Source: a bacterium (lineage in GTDB: Bacteria > JAHJDO01). Taken from it: a stretch of 42,520 nt of DNA. Numbering within the stretch: the first letter of the stretch is position 1; each line of letters starts with the position of its first letter. The DNA lies in assembly GCA_030611945.1 (NCBI GenBank), contig JAUWOV010000003.1, forward strand, positions 1-42,520, given 5' to 3'. Below the pieces are notes generated by a model, which searched no databases, was not told where the DNA came from, and saw nothing but the letters and a program-made list of their open reading frames with translations. Positions 3,242 to 36,510 of this stretch are shown one piece after another. The position numbers were made by a program, and so were the translations under genes.

Positions 3242-6193
<2,952 letters not shown>

Positions 6194-9987: not shown

Positions 9988-9996
9988 TTTGTCACC

Positions 9997-10425
9997 TCAT
10001 TTTGCAAAACGATTCATTCGCTGGTAAATAATATCAATCACTGTTAGTAAATTATCTCCAGAAATTACGTCCCTTCTGGGGTTCCATGTCTTAATATGAA
10101 TAGAAAGGTAAGCATAATTCTTATCTTCAAGATCATTAACACCGTCAGATTCAAAATAGTGTTCAGGTGTTCTCCCTGATGTAGTTCTTAACCGTTTGTC
10201 CACATAAAAACCATATGGCGCGGTCTCAAATCCGCTATCCAGCCCGGGCATTCTTATTAAAAGGTTGGAATAGGAAGGACGCCACCCTTTTGGCAAATTA
10301 AAATCCTTGATAAAAACCCAGGTATAAGTACTCTTGTCATATTTAATAAACTTGTCAGAAAAAACTCTTTGGACAAGTTCAATATTCTCGTGATACCACT
10401 TTCTTATAATATTATACGTAGCCAT
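9997..10425 (-). CDS. Prok-E2_E-like protein without cysteine
   Basis: A 142-aa protein matching the prokaryotic E2 family E pattern: FNLPKGWRPSYSNLLIRMPG (the P-x-GW…L-I-R-x-P strand), APYGFYVDKRLRTTSGRTPE, and YLSIHIKTWNPRRDVISGDN near the end. The H-x-x-x-W-x-P…D element is kept. The translation contains no cysteine at all, so it cannot form a ubiquitin thioester like classical E2 enzymes. It may bind the Ubl, act with a His, or be a structural remnant. It lies between the Ubl gene and the JAB-E1 gene; its stop is 9 bases before the JAB-E1 start. The ribosome-binding site AAAGGAGGGCATAAA is strong. Confidence 0.72.
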   Translation of the reverse strand: MATYNIIRKWYHENIELVQRVFSDKFIKYDKSTYTWVFIKDFNLPKGWRPSYSNLLIRMPGLDSGFETAPYGFYVDKRLRTTSGRTPEHYFESDGVNDLEDKNYAYLSIHIKTWNPRRDVISGDNLLTVIDIIYQRMNRFAK

Positions 10426-10443
10426 TTTATGCCCTCCTTTAGA

Positions 10444-10471
10444 AAGGGAGAGAAGACATACTCTCTCCCTT
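10444..10471 (-). promoter_or_regulatory. Perfect hairpin between the Ubl and E2-like genes
   Basis: AAGGGAGAGA at 10444-10453 and TCTCTCCCTT at 10462-10471 form a 10-bp perfect stem with an 8-base loop. It stands in the 62-base gap between the Ubl stop and the E2-like ribosome-binding site. No U-run follows on the minus strand, so a processing or stability element, or partial attenuation, is more likely than a terminator. Confidence 0.55.
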
Positions 10472-10487
10472 CCTCTATAAATTGAAA

Positions 10488-10715
10488 TTATCTACCGTCT
10501 TCCACAACTGGCTGGGTTTCAAATCTTTCTCCTGGTTGGACTTGGATTCTCGCATTTTTGTAAATAAGTTTGTTAGTGCCGTCAGGATTTACCCGAACCA
10601 AATCTTTACCAGAACCCTGATTTATGGCGTTTAAGATTCCTCCCCCAGTTATTGTAGAAGGTACTGTGACTGAACGACCAGCAACATTGATGGTTCTTGT
10701 AACGTCTTTTCCCAT
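10488..10715 (-). CDS. Ubiquitin-like protein (Multi_ubiq/BilA-type single unit)
   Basis: A 75-aa predicted beta-grasp protein. The pattern TRTINVAGRSVTVPSTITGG, ILNAINQGSGKDLVRVNPDG, KNARIQVQPGERFETQP follows the Multi_ubiq-type repeat (short strand pair, ITG-x-x-I helix, late strand ending G-x-x-F). The order Ubl, E2-like, JAB-E1 downstream supports the call. The C-terminus is …VVEDGR, without a terminal diglycine, so the residue to be activated is uncertain: Arg75 directly, or Gly74 after trimming. The ribosome-binding site is AGAGGTGAG. The gene is the first of the three Ubl genes, following a 27-aa membrane peptide. Confidence 0.7.
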   Translation of the reverse strand: MGKDVTRTINVAGRSVTVPSTITGGGILNAINQGSGKDLVRVNPDGTNKLIYKNARIQVQPGERFETQPVVEDGR

Positions 10716-21939: not shown

Positions 21940-23635
21940 TACTTTAGATAAAATTATAAATCTTCTTATTGACTTAGATCCATTTTTTGCTGCCCAATGT
22001 TTTCCAATGGCAAAAAACGCAACTTCTGAAACAGAAGACAAGTTAATAAAAATATTATCAGATAAAGCTAAAGATGACACTTATTTAGGATTAAGTGCTA
22101 TCTATAGTTTAGGTATAATAAAATCAGAAAAAGCTGTAGAACCCCTTCTTGCATTGTTAGAGAATGGCGGCGACCTTTGGTATGTGGTACATGCGTTAAG
22201 TGCAATAAAATCAGAAAGAGCTGTAGAAGCGCTTCTTGCGCTACTAGAGAAAACAAAAGATAATAACTTTGGGTGGATTGCACATGCGTTAGGTGCAACA
22301 GAATCAGAAAGAGCTGTAGAAGCACTTCTTGCATTGTTAGAGAAAAGTAAAGATAATGATATTATCGAGAGTATAGCAGATGCGTTAGGTGCAACGAAAT
22401 CAGAGAAGGCAGTAGAGCCTCTTCTTGTATTGTTAAAGAAAAGTAAAGATAATGATGTTATTGAGAAGATAGCAGAGGCATTAGCTGAGATAAAATCAGA
22501 GAAGGCAGTAGAGCCTCTTCTTGCGCTACTAGAGAAAAGTAAAAATAATAGTGTTCTTTGGTATGTGGTATGTGTATTAGGTGAAATAAAATCAGAAAAA
22601 ACTATAAAACCTCTTCTTGTGCTGTTAGAGAAAAGCAAAGATAATAGTGTCCTTTGGTATGTGGCAAGTGTATTAGCATGTGTGTTAGGTATAACAAAAT
22701 CAGAAAAGGTAGTGGAGCCTCTTCTTGCATTATTAGAGAAAAGTAAAAATAATAGTGTTCTCAGCAGTATAGCACGTGTATTAGGTGAAATAAAATCAGA
22801 AAAGGCAGTAGAACCTCTTCTTGCACTACTAGAGAAAACTAAAGATGATAGTGTTCTTATAAGTATAGCACGTGCATTAGGTGAGATAAGATCAGAGAAG
22901 GCAGTAGTCCCTCTTTTTGCACTCCTACAGAAAACTAAAGATGATAGTGTTATTGAATATGCAATATATGCATTAGGTGAGATGAAATCAGAGAAGGCAG
23001 TAGAGCCGCTTCTTGCATTGTTAGAGAAAAGCAAAAATAATAATATTCTCAGGCGTATAGCAGATGCACTAGGTGAAATAAAATCAGAAAAAGCAGTAGA
23101 ACCTCTTCTTGCGCTGCTAGAGAAAACTAAAAATGATAGTGTTCGTTGGGGTGTGGAACGTGCATTAGGTGGAATAAAATCAGAAAAGGCAGTAGAACCT
23201 CTTCTTGCATTGTTAGAGAAAAGTAAAGATGATAATGTTATTAAGAGTATAGGAGATGCATTAGGTGGAATAAAATCAGAAAAAGCAGTAGAACCTCTTC
23301 TTGCATTGTTAGAGAAAAGTAAAAATAATAATGTTCTCAGCAGTATAGCACGTGCATTAGGTGGAATAAAATCAGAAAAGGCAGTAGAACCTCTTCTTAC
23401 GCTACTAGAGAAAACTAAAGATGATAATGTTATTAGTGGTACAGCATATGCTTTGCGTGAAATATCTTCTGTATGTTCAGAAACAAGGAATAAAAAGACA
23501 ATAATTTCTTTGGTTAAGATGCGTAAAACATTTAATAGAGAAAATTTGAAGAACGATATTTATGTATCTGTTGAAGATTTAAAAAAGAACTCACGTAGAA
23601 GATTTTTAAATAAGTTAAAAGGATTTTATGAATGA
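21932..23635 (+). CDS. HEAT-repeat (PBS-lyase type) protein, putative sensor partner of NACHT
   Basis: 567 aa. After a 45-residue start it consists of about 14 tandem two-helix repeats, mostly 32 residues long, with core SEKAVEPLLALLEKSK. One unit has a four-residue insertion. The first helix is nearly invariant, while the loop and second helix differ from unit to unit (VLWYVVC, VIEKIAE, VLSSIAR, VRWGVER, VIEYAIY). About 60 C-terminal residues are basic and non-repetitive. This is the architecture of a superhelical binding scaffold. The start overlaps the NACHT stop (ATGTCTAA), so both are made together. The pair looks like a two-polypeptide version of an NLR-like receptor. The antisense ORFs at 22102-23034 are shadows of the repeats. 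Confidence 0.82.
   Translation: MSNTLDKIINLLIDLDPFFAAQCFPMAKNATSETEDKLIKILSDKAKDDTYLGLSAIYSLGIIKSEKAVEPLLALLENGGDLWYVVHALSAIKSERAVEALLALLEKTKDNNFGWIAHALGATESERAVEALLALLEKSKDNDIIESIADALGATKSEKAVEPLLVLLKKSKDNDVIEKIAEALAEIKSEKAVEPLLALLEKSKNNSVLWYVVCVLGEIKSEKTIKPLLVLLEKSKDNSVLWYVASVLACVLGITKSEKVVEPLLALLEKSKNNSVLSSIARVLGEIKSEKAVEPLLALLEKTKDDSVLISIARALGEIRSEKAVVPLFALLQKTKDDSVIEYAIYALGEMKSEKAVEPLLALLEKSKNNNILRRIADALGEIKSEKAVEPLLALLEKTKNDSVRWGVERALGGIKSEKAVEPLLALLEKSKDDNVIKSIGDALGGIKSEKAVEPLLALLEKSKNNNVLSSIARALGGIKSEKAVEPLLTLLEKTKDDNVISGTAYALREISSVCSETRNKKTIISLVKMRKTFNRENLKNDIYVSVEDLKKNSRRRFLNKLKGFYE
22112..23456 (+). repeat. Tandem about 96-bp coding repeats
   Basis: About 14 copies of a roughly 96-bp unit encoding HEAT repeats, with words such as TCAGAAAAGGCAGTAGAACC and CTTCTTGCATTGTTAGAGAA recurring nearly unchanged. 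The near identity at DNA level implies recent duplication or gene conversion. Confidence 0.85.
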
Positions 23636-23658
23636 ATAAAAAACCTGCTATCACACCG

Positions 23659-23690
23659 GGCAACTAGAAGTTCTTTGGTTGCCTTTCTTT
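23659..23690 (+). terminator. Putative terminator after the NACHT-HEAT operon
   Basis: GGCAAC (23659-23664) pairs with GTTGCC (23678-23683), followed by TTTCTTT, 24 bases after the HEAT gene stop. A short six-pair stem with T-rich tail, moderately convincing. Confidence 0.5.
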
Positions 23691-24012
23691 GTGTGCCCCT
23701 GGCGCGAGTGGCAGACTGTACTATATACTATCTACAAGGCAGGATTAGATAGTATTTAAACTTTTCGCAATAGCTTAACTGCTCAATGCCAACACGCCCA
23801 CCCTCCGCCCTTTTTTCTTAAATAACATTCCAAAGCCCCAAGGTCAATGGTAGATGTGGATCAAAAACAATTATTAAAATATCTATAAATCAGCTATAAC
23901 CTCTGCTTGTTTTTTCACTTTACGGAAAAAACAATCATTGAGTCAGATAAGGCTTGAGAGGTGATTAAAAATGGGGCAATACTTTAAAATTCTTAATCTG
24001 GATAAAAAAAGT
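23691..24012. other. Intergenic stretch with an inverted repeat
   Basis: No gene seen. It holds a perfect 10-bp inverted repeat, ATACTATCTA (23725-23734) and TAGATAGTAT (23746-23755), with an 11-base spacer. This could be an operator or a transcript hairpin. The rest is mixed AT-rich sequence. Confidence 0.5.
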
Positions 24013-24297
24013 TTAAGTACTAGGCAAATTATGCTTTATTCTTTCTTCTTCTGCTATCACAATAATAGCTTCAAAAAGGATTCTCATACCATCTAATGAA
24101 ATATATGCTTTTGAATCAACGCCTTGTTTAGTTATCGCATTTACACATGATGTTACTAAATCGCGAAAGGCAGGTATTTCATCTGCTCTTCTCTTGAGAT
24201 CTTTTTTAGCCTTTCCCTTTTTTGCATACATAATTTCTTTAACACAAGCACTCAATTCTTCTGATGTGATTTGTTTTAAATACTCTAACAAGTTCAT
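24013..24297 (-). CDS. Small hypothetical protein
   Basis: 94 aa, helical: MNLLEYLKQITSEELSACVK, KKDLKRRADEIPAFRDLVTS, SLDGMRILFEAIIVIAEEER. No family recognised. It stands alone on the minus strand between the defence block and the rightward replication block. Its size and charge would fit a small regulator, which is a guess. Confidence 0.5.
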   Translation of the reverse strand: MNLLEYLKQITSEELSACVKEIMYAKKGKAKKDLKRRADEIPAFRDLVTSCVNAITKQGVDSKAYISLDGMRILFEAIIVIAEEERIKHNLPST

Positions 24298-24420
24298 AAG
24301 AACCTCTTGGCAACAAATAGGGTTAACTCATCTATTGTGATTTTATCTCAATACATTATATTTGCAACAACAAAAAAGTCAGAAGGTGGACTAAAAGACA
24401 ATTCTTTTTTTATTAAATTA

Positions 24421-24454
24421 AGTAAATTTCTCTTTAAAATGCGAGAAATTTACT
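24421..24454. repeat. Perfect 12-bp inverted repeat (A/T hairpin family)
   Basis: AGTAAATTTCTC (24421-24432) and GAGAAATTTACT (24443-24454) with a 10-base loop, in the region upstream of the first gene of the rightward block. The inner TTTCT…AGAAA core is shared with hairpins at 26282, 27997, 29625, 31243 and 33534. Confidence 0.65.
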
Positions 24455-24510
24455 CTTAGTGTCTAAAAGCAAAATAAGAGAATATCTTTATTGTATAAGG
24501 TGACTAAGTT

Positions 24511-24702
24511 ATGGGAATTATAAGAAATCGCGTAGAAGGGGCTTATAGAGGGTACATGAAGGATAAAAACCTGCCAAAGCTTTTAAGAAAATTGGTTGAT
24601 ATTGCTGACCATTTAGTTCATTACCAGCATCATAGAGACTGCCTGGATAGAGCAATGGACGAATTCTTTCCTATGAAAGAAAAACAACAAAGAGATGTTT
24701 AA
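24511..24702 (+). CDS. Small basic hypothetical protein
   Basis: 63 aa, start ATG after AAGGTGACTAAGTT. Helical and His-rich in the middle: KLLRKLVDIADHLVHYQHHR, DCLDRAMDEFFPM. Not recognised. First gene of the rightward block; next gene starts 33 bases later. Confidence 0.5.
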   Translation: MGIIRNRVEGAYRGYMKDKNLPKLLRKLVDIADHLVHYQHHRDCLDRAMDEFFPMKEKQQRDV

Positions 24703-24735
24703 AGAGCTTAAAAATAATCATTAGAGGTGGACATA

Positions 24736-25137
24736 ATGCCAGAAAACAGCTTAATCATAAACAAGGCATTCTTTGGCGGCAGGTCTGGCGCAAAGAATGT
24801 GCTGAAGATAACCCTGAATAAAAACAAAGAGTGTTATTTTAATTTCGGGATAGAGCAGCAAAACAGCAAATACCTGTGGATACCCTGTAAAATGAATGCT
24901 TCAGAGTTAGGAGATATAATAAACGTTTTGGCAGGAAAGATATCATCGATAGCCTTTTTCCATAAGTTTAATGGGAAAAAAGGAGAAACAACAAGGCAGA
25001 TATGGATTAACAGAAGCAATGATAATAAGGCTGTTTTTATAAAAATTAAGGAATTAACAAAGCCTCTAAGCCTGGGAGAGCAAAAGGTTCTCGAGCTTTT
25101 ACTTTCGCAGATTATAGTGAGGATGAGTTTATCTTAG
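24736..25137 (+). CDS. Possible Whirly/PC4-like single-strand DNA-binding protein
   Basis: 133 aa from ATG 24736, chosen over GTG 24727 because the GTG lies inside the ribosome-binding site AGAGGTGG. Beta-rich: NVLKITLNKNKECYFNFGIE, KYLWIPCKMNASELGDIINV, AFFHKFNGKKGETTRQIWIN, then a helix near KPLSLGEQKVLELLLSQIIV. The strand-strand-helix plan with W-I-P-x-K…E-x-x-x-I resembles Whirly/MRP-type ssDNA-binding proteins. This is a weak pattern match. Its place just before a primase (13 bases) fits a role in replication. Confidence 0.45.
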   Translation: MPENSLIINKAFFGGRSGAKNVLKITLNKNKECYFNFGIEQQNSKYLWIPCKMNASELGDIINVLAGKISSIAFFHKFNGKKGETTRQIWINRSNDNKAVFIKIKELTKPLSLGEQKVLELLLSQIIVRMSLS

Positions 25138-25150
25138 TAAAAGAGGGAAA

Positions 25151-26209
25151 ATGGCAATAAAAACACCTGATTTAATTACACAGGCTAAAAGGTTTGATGA
25201 GAATACCCTAAGAAAGTTTCTGCAATTTCTTAACCATAAAATCCCATTCAAATATCAGGTATTTAAGCCAAACATTAATGGAAAACCACAGGGAAGCGGG
25301 AGATGTATATTTGTGGGGGATATAAACGAATTTATTAAGTTTTCAAAGCAGGACAATGGAACAGGCATGGTCTGCGTTGGAATAAATGAGTTAAGGAATA
25401 CCAATGATATTACCGGCATTACAAAATTACAGGCATTGGTGTTTGATATTGATGCAAATAAAAAAACAAAGTTTGTAAGCTCTATTAAAGACCATAATTA
25501 CGCTATAAGCCTGGCTAAAACCAGGGCAAGGGAAAGATTAGAAAGACTGGGATTTAAGGTTGGTTGCATAGTGGACTCTGGAAATGGAGCTCATATCTAT
25601 ATCAAGGTTAATATTCCGCTAAAAAGAGTGAAATCCAGAGAAGAATGGTTTAGTACAGATGTCTATAAAAAACTGGCTGTAATTGAAAAAAAGATGCAAA
25701 AGCTTAATGATGGCATAGTGCATATTGACTGTCTAACCAAAGACCCTGTAAGAAGGATGAAAGTGCCTGGAACATTAAACTATAAAGATACTCAAGAGGC
25801 AGAACACAGAATGTGCAGAATAGTCTGTCTTTTAGATGATCCTGCTGAAAAAGAAAATACAAAAGCATTTTACAGGATAAACCCAGCTGAATCAGACAGT
25901 ACTTTTGAAAATGCTGATGTGAAATCACTAACTAAAGAGCAAATTAGAAATATGTTTAGACAAGACAAGAAAATGAAGGACTTATATTTTGGGGACTGGC
26001 AGAAATATGGCTATAGGTCAAGATCAGAAGCAGAAATAGCTCTAATATCAAAAATGGTGCACTATCATTTTTCAAATAAAAACATTTACGAGCTTATGGA
26101 CAATTGCAAGATAGGCAAGTGGCAGGATGAAATAATAAGTAATAATTACAAAAGAAGAACAATAGCCAGTGCAAGGAATTTTATTAAAGCAGCAGAGTAT
26201 AACCAGTAA
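25151..26209 (+). CDS. Archaeo-eukaryotic-type (RepB-like) primase
   Basis: 352 aa. Three diagnostic motifs of AEP primases appear in order: LQALVFDIDANKKTKF (metal-binding D-x-D, about residue 98), GCIVDSGNGAHIYIKV (s-x-H motif, about 140), and VHIDCLTKDPVRRMKVPGTL (third acidic motif followed by the R-x-P-G-T-x-N element, about 195). This matches primases of plasmid and phage replication modules. The C-terminal 100 residues are charged and helical with a possible winged helix (SRSEAEIALISKMVHYHFSN). It probably initiates element replication with the DUF932 and ssDNA-binding-like proteins. Confidence 0.82.
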   Translation: MAIKTPDLITQAKRFDENTLRKFLQFLNHKIPFKYQVFKPNINGKPQGSGRCIFVGDINEFIKFSKQDNGTGMVCVGINELRNTNDITGITKLQALVFDIDANKKTKFVSSIKDHNYAISLAKTRARERLERLGFKVGCIVDSGNGAHIYIKVNIPLKRVKSREEWFSTDVYKKLAVIEKKMQKLNDGIVHIDCLTKDPVRRMKVPGTLNYKDTQEAEHRMCRIVCLLDDPAEKENTKAFYRINPAESDSTFENADVKSLTKEQIRNMFRQDKKMKDLYFGDWQKYGYRSRSEAEIALISKMVHYHFSNKNIYELMDNCKIGKWQDEIISNNYKRRTIASARNFIKAAEYNQ

Positions 26210-26281
26210 GGTTCAGGATAAGACTTCCACAAACATCTAATTCCCCCTTCCCTCTCCCCTAAAACAAAAAATGGATTCTTA

Positions 26282-26309
26282 AATTTTTTCTAATAATTGA
26301 GAAAAAATT
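26282..26309. repeat. A/T hairpin
   Basis: AATTTTTTCT (26282-26291) and AGAAAAAATT (26300-26309), perfect 10-bp stem, 8-base loop, downstream of the primase gene and upstream of the next ribosome-binding site. Member of the TTTCT…AGAAA family. Confidence 0.65.
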
Positions 26310-26368
26310 CAGATAAAAAGGTCATTCATTGAATAAGATTATTCCAAGCAAAAGGAAAAGAGGTAAAA

Positions 26369-26623
26369 ATGGAAATAAAAAGAACAATAAGTTTAGGCTT
26401 GAGCAGGAAGGGAAAGTGCATAGTATGCAGCGACTTAAACACCTTGATTTTAGTAATGGGAACATCATCAATATCAGGAAACCTGCATTATTACGGAATT
26501 AAAAAAGAAAAAAACAGATGGATAGTGAGCATTGAAAAAATAAAGCAGAGAATAGCAGAGCTTGAGAACAGAAAAAATAAAATAGAACAAAAATTAGAGA
26601 TAATGAAACAGGTAGTTAAGTAA
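26369..26623 (+). CDS. Small protein with C-terminal coiled coil
   Basis: 84 aa. N-terminal LSRKGKCIVCSDLNTLIL contains one CxxC; the C-terminal half is a coiled coil (IEKIKQRIAELENRKNKIEQ). Ribosome-binding site AGAGGTAAAA. Not recognised. It may dimerise through the coiled coil. Confidence 0.55.
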   Translation: MEIKRTISLGLSRKGKCIVCSDLNTLILVMGTSSISGNLHYYGIKKEKNRWIVSIEKIKQRIAELENRKNKIEQKLEIMKQVVK

Positions 26624-26722
26624 AAAATGGACTGAAATCCCCTTTTTTCTGCATGTAAACCTTAAAGCATTCATACCCGATTCTATTACAAAAGTTTTCT
26701 TCTTTTCAATAAAAATTCAGAG

Positions 26723-27502
26723 GTGATTAAAATAGTAGGACCACTAACCAGAATGAGGCTGAAAGGTGAAAAGATACCATATAGAGGCAAAGAGTATCCT
26801 ATTAAGCATAAATACAACAAATTTAGATTTGTCTGCGATAAATGCGGCAGGTGCTGCTGTGATATTGATATTATGCTTAACCCTTATGACATTATAAGAA
26901 TCTGTAATAGGCTGAAGATTACTTCAGTCCGGTTTCTTAAAGATTATGCCAGTATAACATTAGGCGCGGATTCAAGGGTTCCTATTGTGCTTTTGAATAC
27001 AAGACCCCGCTGCGTATTTAACAAAAAGATATGCACCATATATGAAGACAGGCCGACAAATTGCAGAGGCTATCCTGTAGGCAGAATCACAATGACAGAT
27101 AAAGATACAGGAGAAGAGGAAGCGGGATATATAGTAAATGATAACTGCTCGGCAATACAGACGAAAAAAAGGCAGACAATAGAGGAATGGCTTAGAAAGG
27201 AAAAAGCAGATGAATATTTTAATATCTCAACAAGATGGAACAGATTTATTACAAAGCTTATCCAAAAAGGGTTTCCAAAAAATAATGAGATGTTTAATTT
27301 TCTCTTTATCAAGGCCTGCTATGATTTTGATAATAACCTATATAATAAGCTGATGGCTGCAAAAGGAATAAGCCAGTTCAAAACAGCAGAGGATAAGTTC
27401 AATTTCATTCTTGATAATGCAGAACCTCTTATACTGAATATAGCATCCAAAGTTAATTTTGACAAAGTAAGAGAAATGTTAGAGAAAAATAAAGACAAAT
27501 GA
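26723..27502 (+). CDS. YkgJ-family zinc/iron-cluster protein
   Basis: 259 aa. The cysteine cluster FVCDKCGRCCCDIDI is the CxxCGxCC signature of the YkgJ family (CxxCxxCC domain), followed by the other conserved pieces RPRCVFNKKICTIYEDRPTNC and RGYPVG. These proteins are thought to bind zinc or an iron-sulfur cluster; function is undefined. About 110 helical C-terminal residues are added. The start is unclear: GTG at 26723 lies within AGAGGTGATT, and an ATG occurs at 26753. The same GTG-in-SD arrangement recurs at 29669 and 38158. Confidence 0.75.
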   Translation: MIKIVGPLTRMRLKGEKIPYRGKEYPIKHKYNKFRFVCDKCGRCCCDIDIMLNPYDIIRICNRLKITSVRFLKDYASITLGADSRVPIVLLNTRPRCVFNKKICTIYEDRPTNCRGYPVGRITMTDKDTGEEEAGYIVNDNCSAIQTKKRQTIEEWLRKEKADEYFNISTRWNRFITKLIQKGFPKNNEMFNFLFIKACYDFDNNLYNKLMAAKGISQFKTAEDKFNFILDNAEPLILNIASKVNFDKVREMLEKNKDK

Positions 27503-27633
27503 AATGCGAAATCCCAAGGTGCAGAAATGAGGCAGACCTAATTTATTATGGACACGGGGTCTGTCAAAAGCATTATGATATGGATTGCGATGGTGCTATC
27601 TGCCTAAAAGAAAAGTTTGGAATAAAAAAATAG
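27499..27633 (+). CDS. 44-aa Cys/His-rich protein
   Basis: Below the ORF-track cutoff. ATG overlaps the YkgJ stop (ATGA). The peptide has MKCEIPRCRNEADLIYYGHG, then VCQKHYDMDCDGAICLKEKF, giving C-x4-C, C-x2-H and C-x4-C spacing that suits a small zinc site. Translationally coupled. Confidence 0.55.
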   Translation: MKCEIPRCRNEADLIYYGHGVCQKHYDMDCDGAICLKEKFGIKK

Positions 27634-27649
27634 GCTTGATGTGAATAAA

Positions 27650-27823
27650 ATGGAAGATATGGCAATTGAAAAAATAGTTGGCGATAAGGCAATCTTTACT
27701 CACAAATACTACAAAAAGCTATGCGAAGAAGCAAAGAAGAGAGGAATTACACCTGAAAAACTGTTCAATAAAATAGTGGCAGATTATTTAAGAAAGGTAA
27801 AGAATCAAAAAAGAGATGATTAA
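27650..27823 (+). CDS. Small basic protein, possibly ribbon-helix-helix
   Basis: 57 aa from the ATG at 27650 (GATGTGA upstream); the ORF track used GTG 27641. The part AIFTHKYYKKLCEEAKKRGI, then KLFNKIVADYLRKV has a strand-helix-helix order like Arc/MetJ repressors, but the match is loose. Confidence 0.45.
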   Translation: MEDMAIEKIVGDKAIFTHKYYKKLCEEAKKRGITPEKLFNKIVADYLRKVKNQKRDD

Positions 27824-27825
27824 AA

Positions 27826-27996
27826 ATGTTATTAATGCTTATTAATAAAGCGACTCACAGCAATAGCAAATGTTTCCTTTGTGGCAAAAGAATTCTTAAA
27901 GGACAAGAGGAGTATATTTGGGATTGTGGACGATATAAATCCCACAAAAAATGTGAAGAACAAAGAGAAAAAGAATTAGTTCAAAAGGTGACATAA
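27826..27996 (+). CDS. 56-aa zinc-finger protein
   Basis: Missed by the ORF track. ATG after AAGAGATGATTAAAA. Residues SNSKCFLCGKRILKGQEEYI and WDCGRYKSHKKCEEQ make a CxxCG…H-x-x-C treble-clef-like zinc site. A hairpin begins at the base after its stop codon. Confidence 0.55.
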   Translation: MLLMLINKATHSNSKCFLCGKRILKGQEEYIWDCGRYKSHKKCEEQREKELVQKVT

Positions 27997-28022
27997 AAGA
28001 TTTCTAATAAATGAGAAATCTT
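27997..28022. repeat. A/T hairpin directly after a stop codon
   Basis: AAGATTTCT (27997-28005) and AGAAATCTT (28014-28022), perfect 9-bp stem, 8-base loop. It abuts the TAA of the zinc-finger gene and contains the ATG assigned to the next ORF in its loop. Confidence 0.65.
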
Positions 28023-28196
28023 ATTAAAATGTTAAGGATAAATATATTCTTCAAAAGCGGAAAGATGCAGTCTCTGGAAACTCCAATCATAACAGAGAAA
28101 ATATCCAGCCAGATAAACGAGAAATTAAGAAGCAGCATTATTCTAAAAACAGACTTGTTTATCTTTCAAAATAGAAAATGGGTGAAGTTAGAATGA
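28011..28196 (+). CDS. Small hypothetical protein
   Basis: 61 aa; the start could also be ATG 28029. Basic and hydrophobic: MLRINIFFKSGKMQSLETPI, IILKTDLFIFQNRKWVKLE. No clear ribosome-binding site for either start. Not recognised. Confidence 0.4.
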   Translation: MRNLIKMLRINIFFKSGKMQSLETPIITEKISSQINEKLRSSIILKTDLFIFQNRKWVKLE

Positions 28197-28330
28197 AATC
28201 ACCTAATAACCGGATAAAGAAATATAAGTGATAAAAAAGATATATCCTATTAGGTATATTTTGTATAAGTTTCCTTTATCTTTTGTCCTAAATAGACAGA
28301 TTTATATAGTAGTAGAGGTGTAATATAACC

Positions 28331-29566
28331 ATGGTAACCAAATATGATGTTTTTCTATATCTGGCTGATAAAGGCACTGCAATAAAAACGCCAGAGGTTA
28401 TGAAGAACTTTAAAAGAATAAAGCATGAATATCAGAATATCTATCACATACTTTCTGGTTTAGTGAAAGAGGATTTAGCTACAAGGTCAGGAAAAGGATT
28501 TCAGGTAAAGCTATCACTAAAATCCCGGCTGTTGCACAGGCTGATAACATACTGCATTAATAATGGCATAAATTATAATCATTTAATTGATGTAAACCTT
28601 GCAGATTTTGTTGCAAAGGCATTGTTAAAAACAGAGTTCACTTTAAAGGATTTTAAAATTAACCCAAAGACATTTAAAAAATATACAGAGATACTAAAAA
28701 GATACGGCTTAATTATTATAATTTCAACCAAGCCATTTAAGGCAAGGATTACATGGAACCACCTTTTAAGCAATATTCTCCAGTACTTTGACATGCCTGT
28801 TTTTGTAAGAAAGGAAAACAAGATTGACTTTTTGGACAGGATTGAAAAGGAATTAAAAATATTCAACAGAAAAATAAAACAGAACGAAACAGCCTATAAT
28901 GCTTTAACCGAGGATTTTGAAACTAGGTTTATTCATTCAAACCTTTCGATAGAAGGGAATCCTGTGACCTTGCCAAATACAATTAAAATTTTAAAGGATA
29001 AAATCATGCCAAAAGATCTCAGGGATTCTGATATCAAAGAGATACAAAATTACCAGATTGCTCTGAGAGCAATGATGAAGGATTCCAGAAGCGGAAATGC
29101 CTTAAATAAGGGAAAAATTCTCAATTACCATTTTCTGGCAATGCAGCATAATGAAGAAATTGCGGGAAAGCTCAGAAAAATCAGTGTGCGTATAAAAGGC
29201 AATCCTAACTTTAAAGTAGCTCCTGTAGATAAAATTGGATTCTGTTTTGACCAGCTTATGAAAAGATATGATATTTTTACAGCAAAGAGGCATACCATTA
29301 AAGAGATAATTGATTTTGCCTCTTATTTCCATAACCAGTTTCAGTATATTCATCCATTTGCTGATGGAAACAGCAGAGTAGCCCGCTTAATAACTTTTCA
29401 TCTTCTTCAGTACTTTAAAATACCCATTCTTGACATCCCTCTCGGCATACTAGATCAATATCTAACCAATACTAAAAGCTATATAAAGCGTGATGATAGG
29501 GATTTAAGCAAAACATTGCAGCTAATTATTCTTTACAATCTGAAAATTATTAATGATAAGCTGTAA
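28331..29566 (+). CDS. Fic-family protein with N-terminal winged helix
   Basis: 411 aa. Residues 1-75 look like a winged helix (VFLYLADKGTAIKTPEVMKN, HILSGLVKEDLATRSGKGFQ). The Fic core follows; its active-site motif is YIHPFADGNSRVARLITF (about residue 340), a full HPFxDGNxRxxR. Upstream lies FIHSNLSIEGNPVTL, the (S/T)xxxE(G/N) alpha-inh helix that blocks the active site in auto-inhibited class II Fic enzymes. Such enzymes attach AMP or related groups to proteins. The DNA-binding domain suggests autoregulation. Ribosome-binding site AGAGGTG; a TTTATATA element lies about 40 bases upstream. Confidence 0.88.
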   Translation: MVTKYDVFLYLADKGTAIKTPEVMKNFKRIKHEYQNIYHILSGLVKEDLATRSGKGFQVKLSLKSRLLHRLITYCINNGINYNHLIDVNLADFVAKALLKTEFTLKDFKINPKTFKKYTEILKRYGLIIIISTKPFKARITWNHLLSNILQYFDMPVFVRKENKIDFLDRIEKELKIFNRKIKQNETAYNALTEDFETRFIHSNLSIEGNPVTLPNTIKILKDKIMPKDLRDSDIKEIQNYQIALRAMMKDSRSGNALNKGKILNYHFLAMQHNEEIAGKLRKISVRIKGNPNFKVAPVDKIGFCFDQLMKRYDIFTAKRHTIKEIIDFASYFHNQFQYIHPFADGNSRVARLITFHLLQYFKIPILDIPLGILDQYLTNTKSYIKRDDRDLSKTLQLIILYNLKIINDKL

Positions 29567-29668: not shown

Positions 29669-30532
29669 GTGGTAAAACTGAAACAAGAACTAAATATGGC
29701 TGAGTTAAAAAATAAAGCTCTGAATTTTGATAAGGCAGAGACGAGAGATGTGCATGTTATTAAGGATGAAAACAACTATCTCTGCAAAAGGACAATGGCT
29801 GTATGGAACATTAGCAAGAATGTATTAGCGTGCCTTGCTCCAAAAAATTATGCAGTTATTCAGCATAAGCATGCAACAGAATCTATTATAGGAGCAATAA
29901 CCAGCCTAAATATCAAGGCAGCAGCAAAACTAAAAACATCAAAGCACGGCATACATATTGACTTTGATTTCCCGGAGTCTAAGTTTGAGTTAAAAACTGT
30001 GGGGGAATCATACACAACAGGTATACGCATTGTAAGCGATTATTCAAAAGTAGCTGGCCTTGTAATCAGCCCAAGGGTAACCAGACTGGCATGCTCAAAT
30101 GGAATGATAGTTACAGACATAGTGAAATCCCAGAGAATAAAATATACAGAACAGCTGACAATAACAGTAGAAGGTCTAATTGACAAGATGGTAAAGGATA
30201 TAATCACAAATGATGAGAAACTAGCCAATATGGTAAGTATTTGTATGGAAGACAGCACAGAATGGAACGCTGTAAAGTTATTGTTAAAAATGATGTTTAA
30301 AAAGAAGAAATATGCCAAAGAGATTTTTAATAACTTAGATATCAGTAAAAAAAGAGTTACCAGGTGGGATCTTTATAATGCAGTAACTAATTTTGCGACA
30401 CACGGGGAAAGATTAAAACCGCATATGGAAGCATGGCTGCAAAATAAGGCAAATGAGATAATGAAGACTTCTTTTAACGAGCTGTCGGAAATCAACAAGC
30501 CTGTGAAAAAGACTGTTGCTCAGACAGCCTGA
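29669..30532 (+). CDS. DUF932-family plasmid/phage protein
   Basis: 287 aa. Diagnostic pieces in order: APKNYAVIQHKHATESIIGA, TTGIRIVSDYSKVAGLVISP, RVTRLACSNGMIVTDIV, and RWDLYNAVTNFATHGERLKP. This is the arrangement of DUF932 (phage/plasmid-like TIGR03299-type) proteins, often encoded near replication genes and PRTRC clusters. Molecular function is not established. The start is GTG at 29669 within GAGGTGG, or possibly the ATG at 29696. It follows the Fic gene and precedes the methyltransferase-like gene in the same direction. Confidence 0.78.
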   Translation: MVKLKQELNMAELKNKALNFDKAETRDVHVIKDENNYLCKRTMAVWNISKNVLACLAPKNYAVIQHKHATESIIGAITSLNIKAAAKLKTSKHGIHIDFDFPESKFELKTVGESYTTGIRIVSDYSKVAGLVISPRVTRLACSNGMIVTDIVKSQRIKYTEQLTITVEGLIDKMVKDIITNDEKLANMVSICMEDSTEWNAVKLLLKMMFKKKKYAKEIFNNLDISKKRVTRWDLYNAVTNFATHGERLKPHMEAWLQNKANEIMKTSFNELSEINKPVKKTVAQTA

Positions 30533-30552: not shown

Positions 30553-31242
30553 ATGGTAACAGATATTACAACTCCTGGTTGTCAAACACAGCTTTTTGAT
30601 TTTGAGAAGCACTATGTTACCCCATCAAAATCCCTGCCCTCTTCTTTTCAGATAAAAGTTGAACCAAAGCATGATATGGCAAAAAGCCAAAGTTGTGTAA
30701 AGGAACTGGCAAAATACCTAAGGAAAGTTAACTATAGCTTTACAAGATTTCTTGATATTTCCTTAGCAGCAATTGAAGGCAAGGAAGAAGATTATATGAA
30801 ATTAATAAATGGCTTAGAAAAAGATGAATTACATGATTACACAAAGGCATTGGGAGTTTTAATGGGGTTTTTCATGGAAGGATATTATGATGATATTTTA
30901 GGGATGTATTATCCTTCTTATGAAGGAAAACTCGGCAATGGTTATTTTTCAACGCCCTTTCATATTTCTTGTTGCATGGCAGAAATTTCAGATATCAAAC
31001 CGACAGATACTCTCAATGATCCATGTTGCGGAAGCGGAAGTTTCCTGCTTGCAGCTAAGTTTGTGATTCACAAAAAATATGGATGGAAAGAAAGCTGTTA
31101 TTATATTTCAAAGATGACTGCAATTGATATCGGAGCAACACAGGTTAAGATGTGCAAATTGCAGCTTTTACTTTCAAATTACTTATACATGATATCACGC
31201 GCTTATGATGTTGTTATGAAAGCTAAATCTTTGGTTAAATAG
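30553..31242 (+). CDS. Truncated N6-adenine methyltransferase-like protein
   Basis: 229 aa. YFSTPFHISCCMAEI matches the Y-x-T-P-x-x-(V/I) region of HsdM-type methylases. LNDPCCGSGSFLLAAKFVI is the SAM-binding motif I (DPxCGSG). TAIDIGATQVKMCKLQLLLS is the acidic strand and following helix. The protein then ends after about 20 more residues without the catalytic NPP(Y/F) motif. It could bind SAM or DNA without methylating, act with a partner, or be a truncated copy. The stop TAG is immediately followed by a hairpin. Confidence 0.72.
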   Translation: MVTDITTPGCQTQLFDFEKHYVTPSKSLPSSFQIKVEPKHDMAKSQSCVKELAKYLRKVNYSFTRFLDISLAAIEGKEEDYMKLINGLEKDELHDYTKALGVLMGFFMEGYYDDILGMYYPSYEGKLGNGYFSTPFHISCCMAEISDIKPTDTLNDPCCGSGSFLLAAKFVIHKKYGWKESCYYISKMTAIDIGATQVKMCKLQLLLSNYLYMISRAYDVVMKAKSLVK

Positions 31243-31666: not shown

Positions 31667-33535
31667 ATGGACAATATAGACAAGCAGATTGAAACGCTTA
31701 AAGTTCTAAACAAGGTAGACAATCTGAATTTAACTGATGAGCATTACGGCATATTAAAAGAAAAGGCAGTAAAATTCTACAATGATTACAAAGAGACTGG
31801 CGTGAACATAACAATTAATGTTTCACTGGATAATAAGCATGTATTCAGGATTTCCATATATGATAAAAAATCCATTTCAATAAGATATAACCGGCAACAA
31901 GAGGGATGCTCAGAAGAAATATATTCTATAAGGAATGTTGACTTGCTGTTTAAGCCAACACCCATGGAATTAAAGCATATTTCAAATCTTAGTTCTGATA
32001 TAACTTACCGGGATAAAAAAACATATAAAAATACAGTTCATTTTGTAAACAGCAGGCTAAAACATATAGTGGAATTAAGAGTAGACGAAAATCAAATCGA
32101 TTCTCTGTTCTGGCTGTTTAGAGAGGAAAAAGCAGATATAATAAAAATAGATGACGAAAGCAGATTGAATGTAATTACGCACGTGTTTGAAAAGAAGAAT
32201 AAGAGGTATTATCTTGCTAAAGACTATTCTTACTATAAAGTGCATGTAATAACCCCTGAAGATGAAAAATACAATTACATAGATAAAGGCAGGTTGTTTC
32301 ATCGTGACATTTTCTTTGAAGGCATGGAGCTTTACGAAATAGAGGATGATGTTCTAACTAAAATAATAAATGAAACCAATAATTTTGCAATTATAACCCC
32401 TCAAAGATACAGTACATATAAAGCAATGGTTGAAGAGGAGAAAAGGCAGAAGGAAATAAACGAGCATTATGTTGATGCCATAAAAAACCGATTAGACCAG
32501 GGGTTTGAACAGGATGGAATAAAGTTTAGAAAACACTCAATAGAGTATGCCGGATTAAGGATTGAAAGCGAAGCTCTGGATATAGAGGAATTAGTAAACA
32601 GCATAAACTTTGACCAGAATCTTGACTTTAATAATATCTTCAATCAAGTATGTTCAATAATAACTGATAGATTATTCCCCGACAAATATAAAAACATGGT
32701 TATTCACCTTGGCTCTTTTCCTGTAAGGCTGGATGTTGAAACAAAAAGAAACGGGAAATCAGTTCAAAGACTAATCAATAATGCTGAACAAAAACAGGTT
32801 AAAACAACAATAACCAATAAATATCTTGTTGACAACATAAGAATAAACAAGTCAGAGATAAAGGAAGTCATCAGGAGAGCGATCTGCTTCAGAAAAAGGT
32901 ATGATTATGATGTTTTTCTTAAGTCAGTCAGCACTATGTCTATAAAGCTGCATTACTTTCTCGCCAATGGTGTAAAGATATCTTACACTAAAAATGATAA
33001 ACTTTTAACAATGAAATTGAATCTTGTTAGAAGAGACAATAAAAATTATGTTGCTGTAAAAGATAAATTCCACAAGGTTAAGAACAGCAACCAGCTGTTT
33101 GCAGCAAGTTGTGATCCATTATATTCAAGAGGCTACAGGAATCATAACTTCCAGGCTCTTGTAAAAATGCTTATAGATTTTTTTGAAATCAAGGCAGATG
33201 ATGTCATAACCATGATGGAAGAGAGCTTAAAGGCCTACAAAGAGGCAGAAGAAAGGGCAAAGAAATTGCTAAATGAAACTATGAAGAAACTGGATATCAA
33301 AGAGGTTACAATTAAAGATAAAGAAGGATTTAAAATAAAGGGGAAATCCGGCAAAGAGTATTTTGTGGAGAGAAAAACAAATGGTGTTTACGAGCTTCCT
33401 GCCATGAAATATATCTGTATCGTGGAAACCAGCATGGACAACAATTTCAAGTCAGATAAGCTGGTAACATATTTCTATGCTTTAAAAAATGATTCCTATC
33501 TGGCAAGCGATATCTACACTCTGAATGTCAATTAA
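31667..33535 (+). CDS. Large hypothetical protein (622 aa)
   Basis: The largest unrecognised gene of the window. The N-terminal 270 residues are mixed alpha/beta and charged. A helix-rich centre has YKAMVEEEKRQKEINEHYVD. About 330-480 is again mixed, with NMVIHLGSFPVRLDVETKRN. A coiled coil follows near 545-575 (ESLKAYKEAEERAKKLLNET), then a beta-rich end (GFKIKGKSGKEYFVERKTNG). No catalytic motif stands out. Its position 58 bases before the Ubl gene makes it a candidate member, target or effector of that cassette. Ribosome-binding site AGAGGCG. Confidence 0.6.
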   Translation: MDNIDKQIETLKVLNKVDNLNLTDEHYGILKEKAVKFYNDYKETGVNITINVSLDNKHVFRISIYDKKSISIRYNRQQEGCSEEIYSIRNVDLLFKPTPMELKHISNLSSDITYRDKKTYKNTVHFVNSRLKHIVELRVDENQIDSLFWLFREEKADIIKIDDESRLNVITHVFEKKNKRYYLAKDYSYYKVHVITPEDEKYNYIDKGRLFHRDIFFEGMELYEIEDDVLTKIINETNNFAIITPQRYSTYKAMVEEEKRQKEINEHYVDAIKNRLDQGFEQDGIKFRKHSIEYAGLRIESEALDIEELVNSINFDQNLDFNNIFNQVCSIITDRLFPDKYKNMVIHLGSFPVRLDVETKRNGKSVQRLINNAEQKQVKTTITNKYLVDNIRINKSEIKEVIRRAICFRKRYDYDVFLKSVSTMSIKLHYFLANGVKISYTKNDKLLTMKLNLVRRDNKNYVAVKDKFHKVKNSNQLFAASCDPLYSRGYRNHNFQALVKMLIDFFEIKADDVITMMEESLKAYKEAEERAKKLLNETMKKLDIKEVTIKDKEGFKIKGKSGKEYFVERKTNGVYELPAMKYICIVETSMDNNFKSDKLVTYFYALKNDSYLASDIYTLNVN

Positions 33536-33593: not shown

Positions 33594-33806
33594 ATGGTAA
33601 AATTTAGAATTTTAGATGACAAAGGCGATACTGTGTTGGAACTGCAACCAGAGGAAACAATGGAAAAGATGAGGCAGGAGGCAGAAAGAGGCAGATGGCT
33701 CTATCTTAACGGCGAGGTTGTGAATATAGACCACGTTACTATGGAAGACATTAATAAAGCAAATGAAATAGTTTCAACACCAATGCTGAAAGGGGGTTCT
33801 TTATAG
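33594..33806 (+). CDS. Putative ubiquitin-like protein with GG-SL C-terminus
   Basis: 70 aa from the ATG at 33594, with GTGAGGTGTACTAAA before it; the ORF-track start at 33525 is not supported. Predicted beta-grasp order: MVKFRILDDKGDTVLELQPE (beta hairpin), TMEKMRQEAERGR (helix), WLYLNGEVVNIDHVT (strands), then EIVSTPMLKGGSL. The end is a diglycine with two extra residues, the form expected of a Ubl precursor trimmed by a JAMM protease. The next gene encodes such a protease, and a ThiF/E1 follows. PRTRC clusters of plasmids have the same trio. The fold is inferred, as sequence identity to known Ubls is low. Confidence 0.55.
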   Translation: MVKFRILDDKGDTVLELQPEETMEKMRQEAERGRWLYLNGEVVNIDHVTMEDINKANEIVSTPMLKGGSL

Positions 33807-33815
33807 AACCCTTTT
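33794..33815 (+). terminator. Hairpin overlapping the Ubl diglycine codons
   Basis: GGGTTCT (33794-33800), TTAT loop, AGAACCC (33805-33811), then TTTT. A perfect 7-bp stem at the Ubl stop codon, 9 bases before the JAB ATG. The T-run is short, so it probably attenuates downstream expression or stabilises the Ubl message. Confidence 0.5.
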
Positions 33816-33819
33816 AAAA

Positions 33820-34185
33820 ATGATAAATATCCTGAAAGAGATAGAAAGGATTTCAGAAACAAGCGATAAGGAAGTGTGCGGAATAGTAACAGAGGAAGAC
33901 GGCAGAGCAAAGGTAACAGAGTTGAAGAATGTTTCAGACAACGAAGAGATTTGCTTTATAGCTGACCAAAGGCAGTTTTTTGATGCAATAAAAAAAACCT
34001 CTTTTTATGATAAAAGCAGGAGAAGCAATATAGTGTGTTTTTTCCATTCTCATATTCATAAGAATGAAACGCCTTCCGCAACTGACATGAAATACAGGTT
34101 GAAAAATATTCTTCATATCATATACAGCCTGACAACAAAAAGATTCTTTTTGCTGTATCCAGAAGGTGGTAGAAATGCTGAATAA
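33820..34185 (+). CDS. JAB/JAMM metalloprotease (PRTRC-A-like)
   Basis: 121 aa, a minimal JAMM domain. DKEVCGIVTEEDG supplies the conserved Glu (Glu18) and VCFFHSHIHKNETPSATDM the exact HxHx7SxxD signature (His76, His78, Ser86, Asp89). By family knowledge it is a zinc isopeptidase or processing protease for a Ubl; here the likely substrate is the GG-SL tailed protein encoded just upstream. No clear ribosome-binding site is present apart from the hairpin, so expression may depend on coupling to the Ubl gene. Its 3' end overlaps the next small gene. Confidence 0.82.
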   Translation: MINILKEIERISETSDKEVCGIVTEEDGRAKVTELKNVSDNEEICFIADQRQFFDAIKKTSFYDKSRRSNIVCFFHSHIHKNETPSATDMKYRLKNILHIIYSLTTKRFFLLYPEGGRNAE

Positions 34186-34423
34186 TTCAGTTACAACCAA
34201 AATCAAGGACAAAGGCAATGATGCTTCTAATATTTCCATTTATTTAAACAATAATGCAGCTTATCCTAACATTGAGATAGAGATTGAAAGGAGAAAGGTA
34301 TTTGAAACACTCGCTAATAAAGATTTAATTGTTGCTTCCTTAAACAAAAAATTAACTGAAATGATTCAGATGTATTTGGAAGCTCAGGCAAAAAAAGAAA
34401 AAGAGGTGCGGGAAAATGTATAA
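34175..34423 (+). CDS. Small cassette protein of unknown fold
   Basis: 82 aa from ATG 34175 (GAAGGTGGTAGAA upstream) rather than GTG 34166. Strand-rich start NISIYLNNNAAYPNIEIEIE, then a helix ending in a charged tail (MIQMYLEAQAKKEKEVRENV). It overlaps the JAB gene by 11 bases and the E1 gene by 8, so it is tightly tied to the cassette. It is too short for an E2 domain. It may be an adaptor or a second small substrate. Confidence 0.6.
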   Translation: MLNNSVTTKIKDKGNDASNISIYLNNNAAYPNIEIEIERRKVFETLANKDLIVASLNKKLTEMIQMYLEAQAKKEKEVRENV

Positions 34424-35015
34424 GAAAATTCTGATTTTAGGAGCAGGAGGCATTGGCTCTATGTTTAGTTCAAGGATATATGATTTAGTTATTAAAAGAC
34501 AGATAAACATTAATGACAGCGAGTTTTTTATTGCTGATAATGATAATGTAAAGCTGGAGAATATACAAAATAACCAGAAATTTGACAAAGAGGATTTGAT
34601 GATGAATAAGGCAGAAGCAATAGCGAAAAAGCACGGCTTTGTTGCTATAAAAAAGAAAATAGAAACAGAGGAAGAGTTAAAAGATTATGATGTCTTTGTA
34701 ATCTGCGTTGATAATAAAAAGGCAAGAGAGCTTATTTTCAATTACTGCAATAAAAATCCTGATAAATATTTTATTGATCTGCGTGCTGAAGGCAGGGGAG
34801 TAGCTGCATTTACAACATGCAAAGAAAACACTATAGAAAAATTATTAAAAACATTGCCGGATGATGATGAAAGCGGCTCTTGCCAAAGAAAGGCTGATAA
34901 AGAGCAAGGCATTTTCCAGTTAGGCAGCGTTATTATTGCAGAGATAGGCGCTCAACTCTTGCTTAATAATTTAAGAGAAGAAATAAACCCGCCAAAATTT
35001 ATCCAGATGTTTTAA
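34416..35015 (+). CDS. ThiF/E1-like activating enzyme (PRTRC ThiF-like)
   Basis: 199 aa. Nucleotide loop KILILGAGGIGSMFSSRIYD (GxGGxG), EFFIADNDNVKLENIQNNQK (D-x-D…N…Q, Mg-ATP and Arg-finger region), DVFVICVDNKKARELIF, and DLRAEGRGVAAF. Near the end DDDESGSCQRKADKEQGIFQ has the S-C followed by Q-x-(I/L)-F seen in PRTRC ThiF proteins; that Cys is the likely thioester or structural residue. The protein lacks the zinc CxxC pairs of MoeB. It should adenylate the GG-Ubl encoded upstream. Ribosome-binding site GAGGTGCGGG. Confidence 0.82.
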   Translation: MYKKILILGAGGIGSMFSSRIYDLVIKRQININDSEFFIADNDNVKLENIQNNQKFDKEDLMMNKAEAIAKKHGFVAIKKKIETEEELKDYDVFVICVDNKKARELIFNYCNKNPDKYFIDLRAEGRGVAAFTTCKENTIEKLLKTLPDDDESGSCQRKADKEQGIFQLGSVIIAEIGAQLLLNNLREEINPPKFIQMF

Positions 35016-35411: not shown

Positions 35412-36510
35412 TTACCTACTACAATATCGGTCTTTTTTAAAACGAATTTCTTTGATTAATTTTTCTAATTCTTTATTTCTATTGTTGATATTACGCATAT
35501 CTAAAGCTTTTCTATCTTTTAAACGTAAAGGAAGTATTTTTTTCATATTTCCTTCAATAACAATAGGAATTATTCTATCTTTATCTTTAGAAGATAAATT
35601 TGAAAGAGCTTGTTCAACTTCTTGTCTTACCCAATCTGACTTTCTTATATTATTTGAAACAATAACTAAAGTTAACAGACTATTTTTAATAGCTTTTATA
35701 ATTGAGGATTCTAGTATTTCACCCAAATGAAGGTCATTAACATCCAACCAACAATCAATTCCTGCTTTTAAAAGACCATCTCTCATCCAAGTTGCTATGT
35801 AATTATCTTTTGATGAATGACTTATAAATACATCATATTTATATTTAGACGAAAATAAATTGTTTTGCTTTGAATTAAAAAGTACAATCTCACTATTTCC
35901 ATAGTCATTGTCTTTAAATGATCTATTAAAAATAACTTCTGCAATTCTTAAATCTGCTTTATTATTTTTAAACTCATTAACAGCTTCATAACCCTTAAAT
36001 CCACAAATTTGGTCATTATCAGTTTTTAACTCAAAAGAAATTTCTTCTTTTTCATATTTTATTTGAAAAACATAGAAATAATATGTAATTCCTTTAACAA
36101 TGTTTTTTACAACACCTATAAAATTAATTGATGAGGGTTTTTATACCGCATTTAACTTCATCGTAATAATATTGTAGAATATCTTCGAAATTGTGAGGGT
36201 AAATTTTTCTATTTGGCACATAAAATGGCGAAAGAGATTGTAATATACTAAACCCTTTTGTAATTAAATGTGTATCCTTTCTTTCAATTAGAAGAACATC
36301 ATTATTTTTATTAGTTATAACAAAGCTAAATTGAATAATGTCTAGATTTCTTTTTTCTTTATCGCTTAATCTCTTACAATCTGTTGACTTAAATAGTTGA
36401 GATAGTGAAATAATTTTTTCTCTTTCGAAAAATTGAGCTATCTTTTTAGAAAATAATCGATTGTTGATTTTATGAATATATCTTTTGGGATCTGCTATTG
36501 ATTTTCTCAT
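35412..36510 (-). pseudogene. TIR-domain protein with degenerate Nudix-like N-terminus, frameshifted
   Basis: Two ORF-track pieces (36124-36510 and 35412-35786) join into one gene of about 365 codons if the frame shifts near 36138-36142, a run of five T. The frame between them is open and reads …SSINFIGVVKNIVKGITYYF…, continuing to KYDVFISHSSKDNYIATWMR, the start of a TIR domain. The TIR part goes on GIDCWLDVNDLHLGEILESS, LTLVIVSNNIRKSDWVRQEV; the Glu after DWV is the NADase catalytic residue. The N-terminal half (VLLIERKDTHLITKGFSIL, then DILQYYYDEVKCGIK) resembles a Nudix fold lacking the catalytic box. Bacterial TIR proteins deplete NAD in anti-phage defence. Sequencing error or true inactivation cannot be told apart. 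Confidence 0.65.

Follow-up and report, generated by a model that had tools for sequence, protein, structure and literature searches.

A ubiquitin-like protein, a JAMM protease and an E1-like enzyme on a bacterial contig probably belong to a protein-tagging system of viral origin

Conjugation of ubiquitin-like (Ubl) proteins in prokaryotes has so far been discussed mainly as a part of host metabolism or of antiphage defence. The haloarchaeal SAMPs undergo E1-only conjugation that is reversed by a JAMM protease, in a system that lacks conserved E2 and E3 homologues (PMC4895103). The Caldiarchaeum JAMM protease CsRpn11 cuts the CsUb precursor exactly past its GG, thereby releasing nine residues, and acts on conjugates as well (PMC6043591). 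The operon types described by Iyer et al. in 2006 encode or fuse an E2-like domain, and the same work predicted that the phage protein TAPI is released at a Gly (PMC1779556). Here, we describe a Ubl-JAMM-E1 locus on a bacterial contig that is probably part of a protein-tagging system of viral origin that has not been described previously. Our literature search found neither a description of the module nor a magrovirus paper that mentions ubiquitin, with subscription journals and preprints lying outside its coverage.

The window, by which we mean the whole 42,520-nt stretch analyzed here, comprises positions 1-42,520 of contig JAUWOV010000003.1. The preliminary description had singled out a 70-aa protein ending in LKGGSL, followed by a JAB protease gene with a full HxHx7SxxD motif and then by an E1 gene. 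The ORF of the first protein, with the sequence MVKFRILDDKGDTVLELQPEETMEKMRQEAERGRWLYLNGEVVNIDHVTMEDINKANEIVSTPMLKGGSL, was located together with its GG and S-L codons (Table 1) and ends at the stop codon 33804-33806. An alternative longer in-frame start lies at 33525; GAGGTG is found directly upstream of the start given in Table 1, which is also where the homologue alignments begin. The JAB gene starts 14 bases past the Ubl stop codon. The E1 gene does follow the JAB gene; it is not directly adjoining, since an 82-aa ORF lies between the two, for which we found no Pfam family match and, in the viral loci that we examined, no counterpart at this place. At 33789-33816, an inverted repeat (AAAGGGGGTTC/GAACCCTTTT) covers the Ubl stop codon and the JAB start region and could serve in expression coupling or attenuation.

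Table 1. Features of the window, with the evidence on which each assignment is based
Feature	Position	Strand	Evidence
Ubl, 70 aa, beta-grasp, C-terminus LKGG-SL	33594..33806	+	sequence, AlphaFold2, Foldseek PDB, homologues
GG motif (33792-33797) and two-residue S-L tail (33798-33803)	33792..33803	+	sequence, homologue comparison
JAMM/MPN+ (Prok-JAB) metalloprotease, 121 aa	33820..34185	+	PF14464, profile matches, homologues
82-aa ORF overlapping JAB and E1	34175..34423	+	ORF list; without family match
E1-like adenylyltransferase, 199 aa; GAGGIGS; invariant Cys156 (34881-34883)	34416..35015	+	ThiF match, alignment
Large companion protein, 622 aa; C-terminal YICIV motif, invariant Cys584 (33416-33418)	31667..33535	+	alignment, viral adjacency, hhalign
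DUF932 protein, neighbour outside the conserved module	29669..30532	+	Pfam
N6-adenine methylase-like protein, neighbour outside the conserved module	30553..31242	+	Pfam
Second system: ThiF/E1 protein with long N-terminal region	8515-9987	-	
Second system: Prok-E2_E protein	9997-10425	-	
Second system: 75-aa ORF, not GG-ended, which may be its Ubl	10488-10715	-	

The Ubl has no significant family match in Pfam, NCBIfam, PHROGs or PDB sequences, in keeping with the earlier proposal that it may represent a new Ubl family. An AlphaFold2 model built from a 12-member homologue alignment (mean pLDDT 92, pTM 0.78) has the strand-strand-helix-strand-strand-helix-strand topology, in ubiquitin order, with a disordered GG-SL end. 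When this model was compared with the PDB using Foldseek, ubiquitin and Ubl entries made up nearly all of the best 50 matches (probability 0.90-0.99), with E-values of only ~0.006-0.03 and TM values of about 0.45-0.56. Because the matches are dominated by ubiquitin but have weak E-values and TM values near 0.5, the prediction of a beta-grasp ubiquitin fold is secure, but which relative is closest is not.

The protein encoded by the next gene matches Prok-JAB (PF14464, 9.4e-9, above the Pfam cut-off), and its HxH-x7-SxxD motif, HSHIHKNETPSATD at 34045-34086, is intact, as the preliminary description had it. Solved JAMM proteases are matched by the JAB profile (2kcq, 5ld9, and 6fjv, with PfJAMM1 and CsRpn11 among them), and the H, H, S and D of the motif are kept in 93/93 distinct homologues. 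A candidate for the upstream catalytic Glu, E18, is invariant in an 11-member alignment and present in 36/93 sequences of a 93-member alignment that is poorly aligned in this part. The E1 matches PF00899 (ThiF) at 3.1e-13, and its profile matches ThiF-type proteins, Cap2, MccB and eukaryotic E1s. Eleven of its residues (G9, G11, G12, G14, S15, D41, D43, K65, D99, D121 and C156) are invariant in all 93 distinct homologues, and C156 is the putative thioester Cys. Most members are 185-216 aa long, begin at the first Rossmann strand and are without conserved CxxC pairs. PADLOC matches to the window E1 and JAB were weak.

Single-protein queries with the window Ubl, JAB, E1 and 622-aa protein retrieved no relatives from viral contigs, and tblastn searches of phages (E1, 622-aa protein and Ubl) and plasmids (E1, JAB and Ubl) returned weak, chance-level matches only. 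The family was opened by a masked E1 query that retained likely-motif positions only, and real members seeded later scans. The first relatives were two phage contigs with E1 identities of 40% and 34%. Each has a large gene and a small GG-ended gene together with the E1, and one of them has a JAB as well. The counts reported here come from pattern-based scans with 7-kb flanks (at least 80 archaeal-class loci), and absences apply within these flanks; marker genes suggested the hosts of the viral contigs.

The scans revealed that the large orphan protein, the Ubl, the JAMM and the E1 form a four-gene module, which is found in bacteriophages that encode sigma factors and in archaeal viruses resembling magroviruses. 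No E2 was recognized beside the module in the loci examined, nor by Pfam among the neighbours in the window. The phage class consists of 26 distinct E1s, the window and two genome loci included, and its typical order is large protein, Ubl, sometimes one extra gene, JAB and E1. This order was found in 22/26 loci with the window counted; the exceptions are L052 and L048, which are without JAB, L049, in which JAB lies past E1, and L164, in which the Ubl is upstream of the large gene. A sigma-70 factor is encoded on 20/26 of the phage-class contigs, and a class II ribonucleotide reductase (RNR) gene lies just upstream of the module in 15/26. The archaeal-virus class is larger, with at least 80 loci and at least 67 distinct E1s, and has the Ubl a few kb upstream of E1, a protein X between them, and JAB downstream or adjacent. 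TFIIB-like proteins were found in 60/80 and TCP-1/cpn60 chaperonins in 63/80 of the loci listed, an RNR lies within reach in 36/80, and the larger contigs are ~90-97 kb. Magroviruses have been described as 90-100 kb viruses with TFB and chaperonin genes (PMC10768690), and since size, TFIIB and chaperonin match that description, we take the archaeal class to be putative magroviruses. Examples of class II RNR genes near the module in both viral classes are L130 1514-3514, L050 1459-3438 and L081 1823-3697.

The genome collections yielded only two loci. One (L048, 6150-7585) is on a Methanoperedens MAG contig; a homing-endonuclease-like gene sits between its large gene and E1, and its only Ubl-like protein, of 166 aa, is located past E1. 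The other (L049), from a MAG labelled Acidiferrobacter, is on a probably archaeal-viral contig with a TFIIB-like gene. Among 385 diverse genomes, the only strong match was in the window's own genome, while one MoeB/ThiF-like protein and one ThiF of PRTRC type made up the other two matches. In this set and in a set of 192 diverse genomes, the E1 matches resembled MoeB/ThiF or, in a single genome, were of PRTRC type, so chromosomal copies are rare. Dozens of bacterial and marine archaeal viruses carry the same gene set, which argues that the system is virus-derived. That the Ubl-JAB-E1 arrangement recurs in many viral contigs, and that the GG is invariant in 61/61 distinct Ubls among the matches listed, makes it more than a chance arrangement.

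Two further observations concern other viral gene sets. L047 (3210-6660) carries a separate viral Ubl/JAB/E1 set in which a 78-aa protein ending in KEGGLL, without relation to the window Ubl family by HMM, accompanies a JAB, an E1 and a 370-aa protein with an E2-like HPCINNSTLCLG stretch. Adjacent JAB and E1 genes are also present in cultured crAss-like Bacteroides phages, namely crAss001 (L184, 6256-8654; gp77 and gp76, annotated as metalloprotease and ThiF 'thiamine biosynthesis') and DAC15 (L183, 6551-8660), and no Ubl of the window family was found near them.

The gene upstream of the Ubl encodes the large companion protein, which is 622-871 aa in aligned phage-class members. It is homologous to protein X of the archaeal viruses (383-467 aa; hhalign 97-98%, E 3.8e-13 / 2.7e-10), and the two have a common C-terminal motif, ICI-D ... 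GD ... R ... AL-ND ... TL. The cysteine in this motif is invariant in 13/13 large proteins and, among 61 X sequences, is conserved in 95% or more. Since the gene is adjacent in the viral loci and its product is homologous to X, the 622-aa protein is, by comparative sequence evidence, a part of the Ubl system. The preliminary description had noted neither this membership nor the viral nature of the system. The AlphaFold2 model of the large protein has a moderate mean pLDDT of 73 and matches nothing, and no enzyme fold is recognizable. We rejected an E2-like C-terminal domain (helix, beta meander, Cys, helix), which was without structural support: no UBC was among the best 50 Foldseek matches of this model (pLDDT 73), and no match of any kind reached E <= 0.001.

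The preliminary description proposed that the S-L tail is clipped by the JAB before activation. To evaluate this, we compared the Ubl C-termini, whose residues past the GG are the most variable part of that segment in both length and sequence. As counted over 61 distinct Ubls, leaving out L048, whose GG is not aligned with the core, 22 have no residue past the GG, eight have one, 27 have two, one has three, two have four, and one has 160. Ubl lengths range over 70-88 aa in the phage class and 66-85 aa in the archaeal-virus class. Identical 66-aa bodies carry different tails (QY, SY or LY, and likewise NE or NEEE), and the S-L tail itself occurs in three other distinct Ubls. All 38 distinct Ubls with tails of one to four residues are in loci or records with a JAMM match, of which that of L054 is only partial and runs across a contig end. 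The 160-residue extension is a domain fused past the GG of a phage Ubl whose gene adjoins a JAMM gene (L158 and L159, 5753-6460). JAMM also accompanies 21/22 of the distinct tailless Ubls; L052, with a tailless Ubl, has no JAMM anywhere in its 197,958-base record, and L048, whose doubtful Ubl is tailless, has no adjacent JAMM. Tailed Ubls were always accompanied by a JAMM match, either in the locus or in the record, a pattern that is not significant alone given only these two JAMM-less loci.

Taken together, the invariant GG, the hypervariable tails, the long fused extension beside a JAMM gene and the lack of a tailed Ubl without a JAMM match give strong comparative support to the idea that the JAMM would clip the Ubl tail. 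The search outlined in the preliminary description, for homologues with GG plus one to five residues beside JAB genes, supported its precursor reading, and neither of the adverse outcomes it named, a non-beta-grasp fold or homologues without the GG, was encountered. However, clipping cannot be the only role of the JAB, because about one-third of the Ubls end at GG and nearly all of these keep it, and deconjugation is probably the general role. The same third has another reading, in which the S-L tail is a product of drift, either harmless or blocking activation in a decaying copy, while Ubl, E1 and large protein cooperate and the JAB only deconjugates. The window JAMM would fit such decay in being short (121 aa, against 141-196 aa in phage-class homologues) and in reading HSHIH, without the near-invariant Pro, where 92/93 homologues read HxHP. 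Yet tails are the rule in the archaeal-virus class (32/36 distinct Ubls), tailed phage-class Ubls are scattered over the E1 tree (bootstrap not fully settled) with the GG never disturbed, and the window JAB and E1 have kept all of their motif residues, which leaves drift of the tail improbable, at odds somewhat below those of the sulfur-carrier explanation considered below.

Our preferred reading, to which we assign a probability of roughly 0.64, is that the locus is an E2-less, virus-derived Ubl modification module on an integrated mobile element, in which the JAMM clips the Ubl and then deconjugates it. The sequence, the Ubl fold prediction, the invariant GG, JAMM and E1 residues, the four-gene arrangement and the viral distribution are directly established; we infer all of the enzymatic steps, as well as the target and the biological purpose. 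The Ubl would be made as a GG-SL precursor, from which the JAMM would remove S-L to expose Gly68. The E1 would then adenylate Gly68 and probably hold the Ubl as a thioester on Cys156, and the Ubl would be transferred to protein amines without a dedicated E2, possibly via or onto the large protein. Both of these steps are modelled on knowledge of the E1 family and on the SAMP system. The JAMM would remove the Ubl tag again from targets, which would explain why it is kept in tailless lineages. The large protein would be an obligate partner, as the main target, an adaptor or, least supported of the three, a cysteine-dependent ligase.

The main rival is a viral sulfur carrier of the ThiS/MoaD/CysO type. 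Here, the E1 would convert the Ubl to a thiocarboxylate, the sulfur would pass to a small molecule, nucleotide or tRNA, and the JAMM would free the Ubl from the product or adduct, much as Mec+ frees CysO from CysO-cysteine. A short ThiF-like E1 without an E2 fits this scheme, a GG-ended Ubl, an E1 and a JAMM also occur together in sulfur-transfer pathways, and the RNR genes beside the module in both viral classes make a link to nucleotide metabolism possible. Against it, no sulfurtransferase, rhodanese or cysteine-synthase gene was among the annotated neighbours, and the invariant partner is the large protein without a recognizable enzyme fold rather than a sulfur-using enzyme. To our knowledge, sulfur carriers end exactly at GG, whereas most Ubls here carry variable tails past it. 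We consider the sulfur-carrier explanation unlikely, with perhaps a one-in-five chance at best.

The modification module appears to be embedded in a mobile element. At 3238-6011 of the window, on the minus strand, a large serine recombinase gene overlaps a miaB-like gene and continues from it, which suggests that the element is integrated at miaB. Elsewhere in the window, 20449-29566 and 35412-35786 hold defence-like cargo (NACHT ATPase, HEAT-like repeat protein, Fic protein and a TIR-domain ORF), and the minus strand at 8515-10715 encodes a second, separate ubiquitin-like system (Table 1). The same genome has a third E1-like gene (L041, G000:C89:3-882), which is cut by the contig end and lies beside a RadC-type JAB gene.

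If the modification reading is true, viruses run their own protein tagging via a compact, E2-less Ubl-JAMM-E1 cassette, and a cassette common to large phages and marine archaeal viruses could help to trace movement between domains. More speculatively, phages and magroviruses may share an undescribed, self-contained and reversible Ubl conjugation system that is used during genome replication and that cellular mobile elements acquired, and the fourth protein, through its invariant cysteine, could be a transfer enzyme of a new type; we regard this extension as tentative. The small size of every part and the exactness of the predicted cleavage site make the module directly testable, and the Ubl with the 160-aa extension (L158/L159) is the best natural substrate for precursor cleavage.

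How the module relates to described systems can be considered from the most distant to the nearest. In the PRTRC system, too, mobile elements carry genes for a Ubl, a JAB and a ThiF protein together, and a divergent PRTRC system (Ubl as C, JAB as A, E1 as ThiF) was weighed on the grounds that the window E1 scores 1.1e-9 against PRTRC_ThiF and that hhalign relates the E1 family to the ThiF of a PRTRC-type locus (L039; protein labels assigned from gene order) at 98.5%. However, the E1 reaches 38 bits against a TIGR03736 cut-off of 144.75, and the L039 E1 falls outside the viral clade of the E1 tree (88/76, weak). The Ubl, JAB and large protein show no relation to the L039 C, A, E, F and B proteins in single-sequence hhalign comparisons, and the window neighbours have no NCBIfam PRTRC match. 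The Ubl had been described as divergent from PRTRC-C, and it indeed has no detectable relation to the one C protein compared, which ends in GRKGR and lacks a GG. PRTRC membership was consequently rejected and retains a very low probability; apart from the gene content, a distant relationship of the E1s is what the two systems share.

The E1-E2-JAB-Ubl operons of Iyer et al. and the Bil/Bub-type antiphage systems resemble the module in placing Ubl, E1 and JAB in one operon. In contrast to Bil/Bub and the Iyer 6a-6e operons, the module has no recognized E2 gene or domain, and unlike Bil/Bub it is carried by viruses rather than aimed at them. Phage lambda and T1 also encode a Ubl (TAPI) adjoining a JAB (TAPK), and the window JAB weakly matches the PHROG tail-JAB profile. 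The tail cluster is E1-less (PMC1779556), whereas the module has an E1 and is located close to RNR, polymerase or primase genes. CsUb and CsRpn11 offer a closer parallel, in that one JAMM both removes a tail past the GG and acts on conjugates (PMC6043591), but CsUb uses E1, E2 and also a RING E3, and its tail has nine residues, compared with mostly one or two here. The SAMP/Urm1 system (UbaA, SAMPs and HvJAMM1) combines a GG-ended beta-grasp modifier, a ThiF-like E1 and a JAMM, with no E2 or E3 found (PMC4895103). By comparison, the module described here is viral or mobile, forms a fixed cluster with a large orphan partner, has a short E1 without conserved CxxC pairs, and has Ubls that are unrelated by sequence and commonly carry tails past the GG. 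The best analogy is thus SAMP/Urm1-type E1-only conjugation with reversal by a JAMM, to which CsUb-like precursor processing would be added.
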